Source: Spirochaetota bacterium (lineage in GTDB: Bacteria; Spirochaetota; Spirochaetia; SZUA-6; Fen-1364). Taken from it: DNA of 59,189 bases. Within the stretch, counting starts at the first letter, position 1, and every line of letters begins with the position of its first letter. The stretch covers positions 1 through 59,189 of the forward strand of contig JAPLSM010000045.1 in assembly GCA_026398635.1 (NCBI GenBank). Reading direction: 5' to 3'. Positions 6,429 to 56,044 of the stretch are shown here, piece after piece. The translations under genes were made by a program, and so were the position numbers. Under the pieces are notes generated by a model. That model was not told the origin of the DNA. It did no database searches and worked only from the letters and a program-made list of their open reading frames with translations.

Positions 6429-6506
6429 GATTGCTACCCTTCTACAATGATTTCCAGTACGATTTCCAGCCCCCCGGCTACCCCCTCCAGCCTCATCACG
6501 GTTGCG

Positions 6507-6552
6507 GCGGCTGTCGACATCCCTATCTACGCCGCCCTACGGCGTCCGTGCC
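6507..6552 (+). repeat. 46-bp dispersed repeat family 2, copy A
   Basis: Matches the copy at 38353-38398 at 39 of 46 positions by eye. It contains an inverted repeat ACGCCG-CCCTA-CGGCGT near its 3' half and TGTCGACA near its 5' half. It overlaps the 3' end of the cupin gene on the other strand and supplies its last codons and TAG stop. Confidence 0.7.
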
Positions 6553-7020
6553 TTGGGGAGGCATTGGGGACACCCTGGCCGCTCCCTCCTTCGCCAGATG
6601 CCGTTGCGTTGCGTCGATCGACTCACCGAACACATCAAAGGGTTTGAAGGGCGGTAGGAAGAAGCACACGAGGGTGAGGCAACTCGTCGGGCTGGGATTG
6701 ATGCATTCATGCCACACGCCTCGCGGGGCTGTCACGATGCCTTCGCCGGCCAGATCGTAGTCCTCGCTGTCCAGGCGCACCTTCGCCGGCCCTGAAAAGT
6801 AAATGATCTCGTCGCTCTCCTCGTGCACGTGCCCGTTCGAGATGCCCTTGGGGTCGAGGATCACATGGGTGACCAGGTAGCGCTCGTCACCGGTCGTGTA
6901 GGGCGACAGGGGCAGCCGCACCTGCCTGCGCGGTTCTGGGTCGCGGTATACGAACGGCAGGCTGCGAATGTCGACGACACAGCTTCGGTATTTCTCCGCC
7001 ATCGGATCCTCCGTCGCCAT
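6523..7020 (-). CDS. Cupin domain protein
   Basis: A 165-residue single-domain cupin. The metal-binding motif 1 reads GHVHEESDEIIYFSG (about 63-77) with His, His, Glu, and motif 2 reads PRGVWHECIN near 99-108 with a His. The beta-barrel core spans about 35-125. The last dozen residues (PPQGTDAVGRRR) and the stop codon are encoded by dispersed repeat copy A, so the native C terminus was probably replaced when that repeat arrived. The start lies 3 nt after the M81-family gene, and the pair is downstream of the broken DegT gene in one operon. Substrate is unknown; sugar or small-ligand binding is typical. Confidence 0.85.
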   Translation of the reverse strand: MATEDPMAEKYRSCVVDIRSLPFVYRDPEPRRQVRLPLSPYTTGDERYLVTHVILDPKGISNGHVHEESDEIIYFSGPAKVRLDSEDYDLAGEGIVTAPRGVWHECINPSPTSCLTLVCFFLPPFKPFDVFGESIDATQRHLAKEGAARVSPMPPQGTDAVGRRR

Positions 7021-23435: not shown

Positions 23436-23510
23436 GGTGGGTGTAGTTCAATTGGTTAGAGCGCCAGACTGTGGATCTGGAAGTTGTGGGTTCAAGTCCC
23501 ATCACCCACC
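23436..23510 (+). tRNA. tRNA-His (anticodon GTG)
   Basis: The acceptor stem GTGGGTG (23437-23443) pairs with CACCCAC (23503-23509), with the histidine-specific extra G at 23436 opposite C at 23510. The anticodon loop CTGTGGA (23469-23475) gives GTG. The T loop TTCAAGT is standard. The CCA end is not fully encoded. Confidence 0.95.
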
Positions 23511-23575
23511 CATGGCCGGCGCTCCTGAGCACCCGCGGAGGCGGAAGCCGGGCGGGGCGGGGGGACCGCTCCGAT

Positions 23576-23649
23576 GCGTCCGTAGCTCAGCTGGATAGAG
23601 CGCCGGGCTTCGAACCCGTAGGCCGCAGGTTCGAGTCCTGCCGGACGCG
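23576..23649 (+). tRNA. tRNA-Arg (anticodon TCG)
   Basis: Acceptor GCGTCCG pairs with CGGACGC (23642-23648). The anticodon loop CTTCGAA gives TCG, reading CGA-type Arg codons. The first anticodon-stem pair is a C-T mismatch. T arm GCAGG/CCTGC is perfect. CCA is not encoded. Confidence 0.93.
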
Positions 23650-23662
23650 CGTTTGACAACAC

Positions 23663-23735
23663 GGGCCGCTAGCTCAGTTGGTAGAGCAGAAGACTCTTAA
23701 TCTTCGGGTCGCAGGTTCGAGTCCTGCGCGGCTCA
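23663..23735 (+). tRNA. tRNA-Lys (anticodon CTT)
   Basis: Acceptor GGGCCGC pairs with GCGGCTC (23728-23734) with one G-T wobble. Anticodon stem GAAGA/TCTTC encloses CTCTTAA, giving CTT. CCA is not encoded. Confidence 0.95.
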
Positions 23736-23790
23736 AGGCGATGGGCTCCGGTCAGCTTGACGGTGCCGAAGGGCCCATGCTACTTTCCTG

Positions 23791-23873
23791 GCGAGAGTGG
23801 TGGAACCTGGCAGACACGCCAGACTTAGGATCTGGTGCCGAAAGGCTTGAGGGTTCGAATCCCTTCTCTCGCA
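23791..23873 (+). tRNA. tRNA-Leu (anticodon TAG)
   Basis: Acceptor GCGAGAG pairs with CTCTCGC (23866-23872). Anticodon stem CCAGA/TCTGG encloses CTTAGGA, giving TAG. A long variable arm (TGCCGAAAGGCT) marks a class II tRNA. CCA is not encoded. Confidence 0.95.
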
Positions 23874-23887
23874 TTGGGAGAGGTTGT

Positions 23888-23960
23888 GCGGGAATAGCTC
23901 AGTTGGTAGAGCTCCACCTTGCCAAGGTGGACGTCGCGGGTTCAAGTCCCGTTTCCCGCT
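23888..23960 (+). tRNA. tRNA-Gly (anticodon GCC)
   Basis: Acceptor GCGGGAA pairs with TTCCCGC (23953-23959). Anticodon stem CCACC/GGTGG encloses TTGCCAA, giving GCC. CCA is not encoded. Last gene of the array. Confidence 0.95.
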
Positions 23961-23965
23961 CGTGG

Positions 23966-37398: not shown

Positions 37399-37448
37399 GG
37401 GCTCTCGCCTTCGCGCGCCAAAAGCGCGCTAGGGCTGCCGCCCTAGGG
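37399..37448 (-). repeat. 50-bp three-hairpin repeat family 1, copy 1
   Basis: Read on the minus strand it starts CCCTAGGGCGG and ends GAGAGCCC. It matches copies 2 and 3 at 42 and 44 of 50 positions by eye. Hairpin 1 is perfect; hairpin 2 has a G-C pair where copy 3 has A-T. It lies between serA and the UVR protein gene. Confidence 0.85.
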
Positions 37449-38327: not shown

Positions 38328-38353
38328 CGGCTGTCGACATCCATGCCCAAGGG
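38328..38353 (+). repeat. Partial copy of repeat family 2
   Basis: Joins the first 18 bases and the last 10 bases of the family 2 unit, lacking the central hairpin. It directly abuts the full copy at 38353-38398, so the pair looks like a tandem duplication with an internal deletion. Confidence 0.55.
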
Positions 38354-38398
38354 CGGCTATCGACGTCCTTGTCTACGCCGCCCTCGGGCGTCCATGCC
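38353..38398 (+). repeat. 46-bp dispersed repeat family 2, copy B
   Basis: Matches copy A (6507-6552) at 39 of 46 positions by eye. It contains ACGCC...GGCGT inverted repeats and ends TCCATGCC. It sits in the leader of the small cupin gene. Confidence 0.7.
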
Positions 38399-38452
38399 CA
38401 AGGCTTGGCGCCTTCCCCCCTTCCTGCTATCCTCGCTCGGGAGTCCAAGGTA

Positions 38453-43180: not shown

Positions 43181-44725
43181 ATGAGTACTGACCGCCGTCC
43201 GACGCGCGACGCCCGATCAAGCCGGATGGCCCGCACCTTCCACGTCGAGAGCCTCGGTTGCGCGAAGAACCAGGTCGATGCCGAGGTGATGATCGCCGCC
43301 CTCGAGCGCGCGGGGTGGACGTTCGCGGGAGCCCCCGACAACGCGGAAGTCCTCATCGTGAACACCTGCGGCTTCATCGACGCGGCCCGCCGGGAGTCCA
43401 TTGACACCAGCCTCGCGCTGCGGGCCCGGTTCCCTGCGAGCCGCCTGTACCTCGTCGGCTGCCTGTCGGAGCGCTACGCAGCGGAGCTCGCCGTGGAAAT
43501 GCCGGAGGTCGACGGGTTCCTCGGCAACCGCGACCCCTCGCGGATCGTGGACCTCGTGGAGGGGCGGCTTCCGACGTCCCTAGGGCGGCAGCCCAAGCAC
43601 GCCTCCGGCGTGCGAAGGCGGAAGCCCCTGTCTCCGCCGCCCTTGTGCGTCCTTGCACAGGGAAGGGCAGGACCTGGTGAGTCGCCCGGGCCGGGCGTAG
43701 CGCGGAACACCGCCGTCCCGGCGACGGCCGCGCCCTCCAGTCCGCGTCGCGTGCGACTGCTCTCCTACCCGGGCAGCGCGTACCTCAAGGTGGCCGAAGG
43801 ATGCGCCAATCGCTGCTCGTACTGCGCCATCCCGCTCATCCGGGGTGATCTCGCGAGCCGGCCCCGGGCGGACGTCGTGGACGAGGCGCGCGGCCTGCTC
43901 GCGGCCGGTGCGCACGAGCTGGTCCTCATCGCCCAGGATCTCGGGTCGTACGGGCTCGACCGGGGCGCCGCGGAGCTCCCGGCCCTGCTCGTGGACCTCT
44001 CGGCGCTGCCCGGCAGCTTCTGGGTCCGCCTGCTGTACGTGCACCCCGACCACTTCCCCCCCGACGTGCTGTCGGTCATGCGCGACGACCCCCGGTTCCT
44101 GCGCTACCTCGACGTGCCGTTTCAGCACGCGTCCCCGGCGATCCTGGCTGCCATGGGACGGAAGGCCGACCCCGACGCCAACCTCCGGCTCGTCGAGTGG
44201 ATTCGCGCGACGCTGCCCGGCGTCGTGCTGCGCTCGACGTTCCTCGTCGGCTTCCCGGGCGAGACCGACCGGGACGCCGAACGCCTGGCCGACTTCCAGG
44301 AGGAGGCCGCGCTCGACTGGGTTGGCGTGTTCACGTATTCGCGCGAGGAGGGCACCCGCGCTCACGGCCTGCCCGGCCGGGTTCTGCGCCGCACCGCGGA
44401 CGCGCGCCGCGCGGCGGTCGAGGAACGGCAGGTGCCGATCACGTGGCATCGGCTGGACCGGCACCTCGGAGCGGAGCTCGACGTGCTGGTCGAGGAGCGG
44501 GTGGAAGGGGAGGAGCTCTCGCTCGGCAGGGCGTACCTGCAGGCGCCCGACGTGGACGGCCTCACGGTGGTGCGCGCAGCCTGCGCCCCGGGAAGCCTGG
44601 TGAGGATCCGCATCGAGCGCCGCAACGGCTTCGACCTCGAGGGGGCGCCGGTCGCGGACCACGGCCGGCCGGAAACGGCCCGGACGGGGGACGCGGCGGA
44701 GTCCGCGCGTCCGGACACGGCATGA
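43181..44725 (+). CDS. rimO: Ribosomal protein S12 methylthiotransferase RimO with repeat-derived insert
   Basis: A 514-residue radical SAM methylthiotransferase that modifies an Asp of ribosomal protein S12. The N-terminal domain has its three cluster Cys in SLGCAKNQ, VNTCGFID and VGCLSERY. The SAM motif is GCANRCSYCAIP near 206. The C-terminal TRAM domain covers about 415-490. Between the two domains, about residues 131-190, lies an extra Pro/Arg/Ala-rich stretch that RimO normally lacks; its first 17 codons are copy 2 of repeat family 1. The frame stays open, so the insert is translated. The start at 43181 follows AAGGG; an ATG at 43226 is the alternative. Confidence 0.92.
   Translation: MSTDRRPTRDARSSRMARTFHVESLGCAKNQVDAEVMIAALERAGWTFAGAPDNAEVLIVNTCGFIDAARRESIDTSLALRARFPASRLYLVGCLSERYAAELAVEMPEVDGFLGNRDPSRIVDLVEGRLPTSLGRQPKHASGVRRRKPLSPPPLCVLAQGRAGPGESPGPGVARNTAVPATAAPSSPRRVRLLSYPGSAYLKVAEGCANRCSYCAIPLIRGDLASRPRADVVDEARGLLAAGAHELVLIAQDLGSYGLDRGAAELPALLVDLSALPGSFWVRLLYVHPDHFPPDVLSVMRDDPRFLRYLDVPFQHASPAILAAMGRKADPDANLRLVEWIRATLPGVVLRSTFLVGFPGETDRDAERLADFQEEAALDWVGVFTYSREEGTRAHGLPGRVLRRTADARRAAVEERQVPITWHRLDRHLGAELDVLVEERVEGEELSLGRAYLQAPDVDGLTVVRAACAPGSLVRIRIERRNGFDLEGAPVADHGRPETARTGDAAESARPDTA
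43578..43627 (+). repeat. 50-bp three-hairpin repeat family 1, copy 2, inside rimO
   Basis: Same orientation as rimO. It matches copy 3 at 44 of 50 positions. Hairpin 1 has one mismatch; hairpin 2 is perfect with loop TCC; hairpin 3 has a GGAA loop where the other copies have GAGA, both GNRA. It encodes LGRQPKHASGVRRRKP in the rimO frame. Confidence 0.85.
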
Positions 44726-54443: not shown

Positions 54444-54493
54444 CCCTAGGGCGGCAGCCCTAGCACGCCTCTGGCGTGCGGGGGCGAGAGCCC
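54444..54493 (+). repeat. 50-bp three-hairpin repeat family 1, copy 3
   Basis: All three hairpins are perfect here: CTAGGGC/GCCCTAG with loop GGCA, GCACGCC/GGCGTGC with loop TCT, and GGGC/GCCC with loop GAGA. It lies between the convergent acylphosphatase and phosphatase genes. Confidence 0.85.
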
Positions 54494-55854: not shown

Positions 55855-56044
55855 CCGGCGCCTCCCTTGCCTGCCGGCCCTGTTGTCCCTTACCCTGCGG
55901 GGAACGGCCCGGCGACGCTCGCGACATCCATGTCGGCGTCGCCCTCCGCCCATCCGTGGGCTAGGGGCGACGCGGCGATCGTTCCCCAGCGTGCCGGCCT
56001 TGTCAAGCGAGCGGTGCGGTCTCAGGCGCCGGGGAGGACTCACC

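Follow-up and report, generated by a model that had tools for sequence, protein, structure and literature searches.

A palindromic repeat nested in the hairpin loop of a second repeat within the rimO reading frame of an uncultured spirochaete

Background

In-frame palindromic repeats are best known from the obligate intracellular Rickettsia and Wolbachia, where weak selection is a usual explanation. The locus described here raises the question of what has lengthened a linker of the RimO protein in an uncultured spirochaete, and whether the additional DNA is read as protein. The window, i.e. the whole stretch of 59,189 nucleotides analysed in this work, belongs to a GC-rich metagenome-assembled genome of 3.94 Mb, distributed over 491 contigs and with a contamination estimate of 7.4 percent. 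Comparisons were carried out with 25 other genomes of the order, two from the same family (G001 and G002) and none from the same genus. In addition to rimO, the window hosts a cluster of five tRNA genes (His, Arg, Lys, Leu, Gly; 23437-23961). The first-pass annotation had assigned region 43578-43750, inside rimO, to a translated repeat copy, plausibly part of a composite element.

Results

The rimO CDS (43181-44725, + strand; ribosomal protein S12 methylthiotransferase, 514 aa plus stop) is an uninterrupted ORF, in which 514 codons (43181-44722) are followed by a stop codon ending at 44725; a second potential start ATG is found at 43226. Pfam domains UPF0004 (residues 20-115), Radical_SAM (204-372) and TRAM_2 (430-491) all score above their cut-offs, and the RimO equivalog TIGR01125 is passed as well (396 bits versus a cut-off of 357). 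Residues Cys 27, 63, 94, 208, 212 and 215 are invariant in a 28-sequence alignment, in keeping with both iron-sulphur clusters of the enzyme. Other RimO-like matches in the same genome are 28-35 percent identical, and resemble MiaB-type paralogues. The nearest named RimO outside the genome is that of Spirochaetaceae bacterium fen_1364.

The segment from VDGF to LLSYPG measures 83 residues in the window RimO, 33 in G001 and 35 in G002. The excess of 48-50 residues agrees with the 45-55 originally estimated, and the alignments indicate that the insert is missing from the same-family RimOs. In 108 homologues the linker has a median length of 44 residues and ranges from 30 to 68. The suspicion that the same linker might occur in distant RimOs was not borne out, as the longest homologous linker is 15 residues shorter, and no such sequence is present in the 70-odd linkers displayed. 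At the position of the insert, the linker is short in the structure of Thermotoga RimO. In the structure model of the window protein pLDDT values are >90 in the domains flanking the insert, and fall to <50 at residues 134-185, a stretch starting with the first residue of the element here called A. The low pLDDT suggests that the insert is disordered, in line with its proposed location in a loop or linker.

The DNA responsible is made of two interspersed palindromic repeats, A being nested in the first hairpin loop of B. The 5' part of B (GGGCGGCTTCCGACGTCC, 43562-43579, + strand) includes the left arm of an outer helix and, as far as the RTCC loop, the first hairpin; after removal of A it can be aligned with other B copies. 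Element A (LGRQPKHASGVRRRKP, 43580-43627, + strand; model core 43583-43627) is 48 nt, or 16 codons, long and directly follows the GTCC of this loop. The 3' part of B (43628-43662, + strand) provides the right arm of the outer helix and a second hairpin (CCCTTGTGC-GTCCTT-GCACAGGG), and reads LSPPPLCVLAQG; B-model matches span 43562-43660 and 43563-43662. Removal of the 48 nt of A from rimO leaves a 53-nt sequence, which aligns end to end with other B copies. The composite is 101 nt long and has no stop codon. Of the 33 codons added in all, 17 derive from B (51 nt net) and 16 from A (48 nt). The second hairpin of B carries GTGC/GCAC in rimO, in place of the GGGC/GCCC found elsewhere, a compensatory change.

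The repeat had thus been correctly spotted, since over 20 sites across the genome match the noted stretch, and the conceptual translation across the unbroken frame would yield exactly the 16-residue peptide claimed. Its bounds need correction, as repeat material begins further upstream and runs from 43562 to 43662. A composite origin is retained, one repeat lying within the loop of another and not beside it. The TGTGC/GCACA hairpin reported near 43645 exists, and coincides with the second hairpin of B instead of marking a separate further element. The remaining linker (43663-43750, + strand) is single-copy, and a genome sequence search found no second copy of 43669-43750. Subtraction of the 33 A and B codons leaves a linker of about 50 residues, within the 30-68 range of the 108 homologues, so no further element is needed; the residual segment is most likely, on linker lengths, a pre-existing, lengthened RimO linker. 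No Rfam family matched the insert site, and searches of plasmid, phage and viral contig collections gave no match. The GC3 of the insert (0.70) is lower than that of the flanks (0.79-0.90), a difference which we count against the interpretation favored below. The rimO junctions rest on a single assembly of one metagenome-assembled genome.

Element A is a hairpin of 45-48 nt, with the consensus GGGCGGCAGCCC-TA-GCRCGCC-TCT-GGCGYGC-GAAGGCGAGAGCCC derived from aligned copies. The genome hosts at least 33 copies, since a covariance model retrieves 33 at E<=1e-4 and 40 at E<=0.1. The same model detected none in the 25 other genomes of the order, the two same-family genomes included. Two additional copies reside in the window, at 37399-37443 (- strand) and at 54449-54493 (+ strand), the latter located after ATCC. 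The rimO-frame codon of A is TAG in 16 of 19 copies and AAG in rimO. The AAG codon would fit a rare open copy having been inserted as well as loss of the stop by mutation, and is supportive only, because the amber codon is missing also in two of the 18 non-rimO copies (about 11 percent). A variant with the same outer arms and an inverted inner hairpin (CTCC-GCACGG...CCGTGC-TAG) was noticed in contigs C487, C403, C374 and C385.

Family B came to light when a different repeat of the window (38344-38412) was used as the query. Members are 53-56 nt long, and fold into two hairpins with RTCCNT loops. At E<=1e-3 the B model identifies at least 47 copies in the window genome and at least seven each in G001 and G002; these are lower bounds, obtained from the best 150 candidates per genome, and omit weak matches in G020, G006 and G024, not confirmed as B. 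In 23 aligned copies, one each from G001 and G002, the two loops (C-RTCC-N-T) are almost the only invariant positions, and 88 percent of the stem cells are paired. Compensatory cells are 48 versus 13.7 in shuffles, and the covariation score is 0.403 versus at most 0.113 for slid partners. Perfect stems closing RTCCNT loops number 29, versus 7.9 expected, over 403 kb of contigs partly chosen for repeats; the window alone has one match versus 0.35 expected, and is uninformative. Three B copies lacking A reside in the window on the + strand, at 6505-6557, 38351-38403 and 55911-55965, the last belonging to another stem subfamily; all are intergenic according to a rough gene caller. Tandem pairs were encountered as well, one consisting of identical copies 52 nt apart (contig C28:9744-9849), another located about 2 kb from an IS200-like Y1 fragment in contig C305.

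The nested organization is not peculiar to rimO. RTCC is found a few bases upstream in 12 of 24 well-flanked A copies, where roughly one is expected by chance. Flanking sequences pair across A with stems of at least 5 in seven of the 24, versus 1.9 expected from mismatched flanks. B copies interrupted at RTCC by A or A-like inserts occur at C385:27303 and C302:11484, and A copies lie within B-type hairpins in contigs C105, C278, C296, C81 and C39.

B resides in frame also in genes other than rimO, namely polA, lnt, uxaE and those encoding a STAND-type ATPase, an rlmL-like methyltransferase and an M24 prolidase. Members of the 53-nt subfamily are set in the same sense frame in four of them, reading EGRLPTS...LSPPPLCVLAQGR in rimO, MSGGRLPTSVSPPPSGVHAQGLYLLDGYS in polA and EEGRLPTSVSPPPSGVPAQGRY in the STAND-type AAA ATPase, and forming part of the C-terminal tail in the rlmL-like methyltransferase. 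Empty-site comparison with relatives covered rimO, the STAND ATPase and polA. The 17 B residues of the STAND ATPase are missing from all of its 14 homologues. In the window genome, MSG and the conserved LYLLDGYS of PolA are separated by 17 residues which are missing from G001, where the polA gene starts MSRELYLIDGYS. PolA homologues align from about residue 20. No start codon is found between the end of B and LYLLDGYS, so that any production of PolA must involve translation of B, at least in part. The idea that B is always read in one frame was rejected: members of the other subfamily are in frame and antisense between the two domains of the prolidase, and, as a nested copy with an A-like insert at the RTCC loop (C302:11484-11575), between the LNT_N and CN_hydrolase domains of the apolipoprotein N-acyltransferase encoded by lnt; the uxaE copy, also from the other subfamily, is in a sense frame unlike that of the 53-nt copies. 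A ribbon-helix-helix-like gene in contig C318 (L182, 1504-1680), which has no Pfam match and is left out of the count of in-frame genes, ends in a repeated RLPxSV tail reminiscent of a degenerate tandem B read in one frame.

Discussion

The data make it very probable that the RimO insert is a translated and tolerated sequence, derived from A nested in B, two families of mobile, non-autonomous palindromic repeats. According to this view, both families would have spread in a spirochaete lineage. A copy of B may have inserted where rimO encodes the flexible linker, with a net gain of 51 nt, and a copy of A, which often resides just 3' of RTCC in the B loop, may have added 48 nt inside it. As both lengths keep the frame and introduce no stop, RimO would be translated through, and a disordered insert of 33 residues, hosted between intact domains, would be tolerated. 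Movement at the DNA level was plausibly promoted by an enzyme favoring hairpins, through a recognition process which leaves no target duplication. None is seen for A at RTCC; the 53 nt of B account for 51 nt net in rimO, so that a 2-nt overlap is possible.

Elements of the IS200/IS605 type move by single-strand Y1/HUH transposition. Insertion 3' of a fixed tetranucleotide, with no duplication of the target, resembles this process, and by analogy may reflect a similar one. The search with PF01797 retrieved a single match, an incomplete IS200-like Y1 transposase gene (L144, 1-240) bordering the end of contig C305. No A or B copy adjoins it in the sequence available up to that end. The proposal that this transposase mobilizes A was dropped as unsupported, its neighbourhood holding a typical IS200-type end and no adjoining A or B. 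No transposase tied to either repeat, and no parent element, was found by the PF01797 search.

Different explanations of the locus deserve consideration. The linker could be an ordinary low-complexity expansion rich in Pro, Arg and Ala, similar to repeats by chance. The genome is GC-rich and RimO linkers do vary between 30 and 68 residues; still, A matches a sequence elsewhere at 91 percent over 53 nt (E 3e-14), the match of B to other copies extends over 53 nt, and base-pair covariation is present in both. Extremely unlikely as an account of the whole insert, a chance expansion is refuted by the copy searches for 43562-43662, and is probably the best account of 43663-43750. It could also be argued that rimO is decaying, either inactivated by the insertion or translated from a restart downstream, all the more as the hairpin of the repeat copy has strong predicted stability and could slow ribosomes. 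Yet all 514 codons are open, the six cluster cysteines are conserved, domain and equivalog cut-offs are passed, the fold outside the insert is modelled with high confidence, and the other RimO-like genes look like MiaB-type paralogues. Decay is hence a very unlikely explanation. Alternatively, the insertion might be adaptive, and RimO, or the way it folds on the ribosome, might be regulated by the mRNA hairpins or by the basic segment rich in Pro. Pairing of B hairpins is indeed kept in coding copies, as GTGC/GCAC in rimO and GGGCCGC/GCGGCCC in the rlmL-like gene; against this, the host genes (rimO, polA, lnt, uxaE and others) are functionally unrelated and the insert is predicted to be disordered, which makes an adaptive role very unlikely.

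A bolder scheme, which we regard as conceivable and clearly tentative, extends the interpretation of A nested in B to a hierarchical mobile system, in which the single-stranded RTCC loop of a B hairpin would serve as the specific target site of A, inserted with no target duplication, and composites would become coding; B in turn might be a dispersed, two-site CsrA-binding RNA. On the opposite strand B shows two ANGGAU hairpin loops closed by C-G, about 26 nt apart, which match the core of the CsrA consensus hairpin RUACARGGAUGU (PMC8668096). One csrA gene is present in the window genome, and most of the order has the gene. The orientation of intergenic B copies relative to genes (about 11 co-directional forward, 8 reverse, 8 convergent, 4 divergent, as counted with a rough gene caller which missed rimO itself) reveals no preference, and CsrA regulation was set aside as the main explanation and kept as a lead.

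The host is here an uncultured spirochaete with a GC-rich genome of 3.9 Mb, B is in frame in at least seven genes, polA, rimO and lnt among them, and repeats are nested. It would appear that selfish DNA hairpins serve to encode protein, and the system opens the question of the origin of disordered protein segments. As a defined insertion site, open to testing, the RTCC loop also allows one to ask how repeats choose their targets. By virtue of its fixed loops and covarying stems, B is a structured element deserving a family entry.

Several known systems are related. The first-pass annotation had likened the insert to Rickettsia palindromic elements (RPEs; Ogata et al. 2000, reviewed in PMC2229807), which have Wolbachia counterparts. 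For an in-frame palindromic repeat the comparison is supported at the functional level. Like RPEs, A and B are dispersed palindromic repeats, located both in intergenic regions and in frame within conserved genes, preserving the frame in hosts which probably keep their function. They differ in phylum and in size, A being 48 nt, B 53-56 nt and the rimO composite 101 nt long, versus the 105-146 nt of RPEs (PMC2229807). Moreover, the two hairpins of B carry fixed RTCCNT loops, and one repeat is nested in the loop of the other. Scattered in-frame or intragenic cases are on record outside Rickettsia and Wolbachia; GTAG and CGTC REPs lie inside genes in several species, and CGTC types, whose families have no known transposase, occur also in Spirochaetes (PMC3733652). 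A and B share with these REPs the small hairpin format, the mostly intergenic location, with some copies in genes, and the covarying stems. In contrast, the consensus ends of A and B carry neither GTAG nor CGTC, the latter being found only in some B loops, and B has a fixed loop motif at which A interrupts it. Bacterial MITEs known to give in-frame fusions, such as ERIC, Correia, YPAL and RU-3 (PMC2229807), are likewise non-autonomous and palindromic, with an open reading frame used as protein; no evident terminal inverted repeats of insertion sequences, nor clear target duplications, were seen for A and B. Compared with all these systems, the novelty lies in the loop-targeted nesting, in a covarying B family with fixed loops, and in the use of B in at least seven genes.
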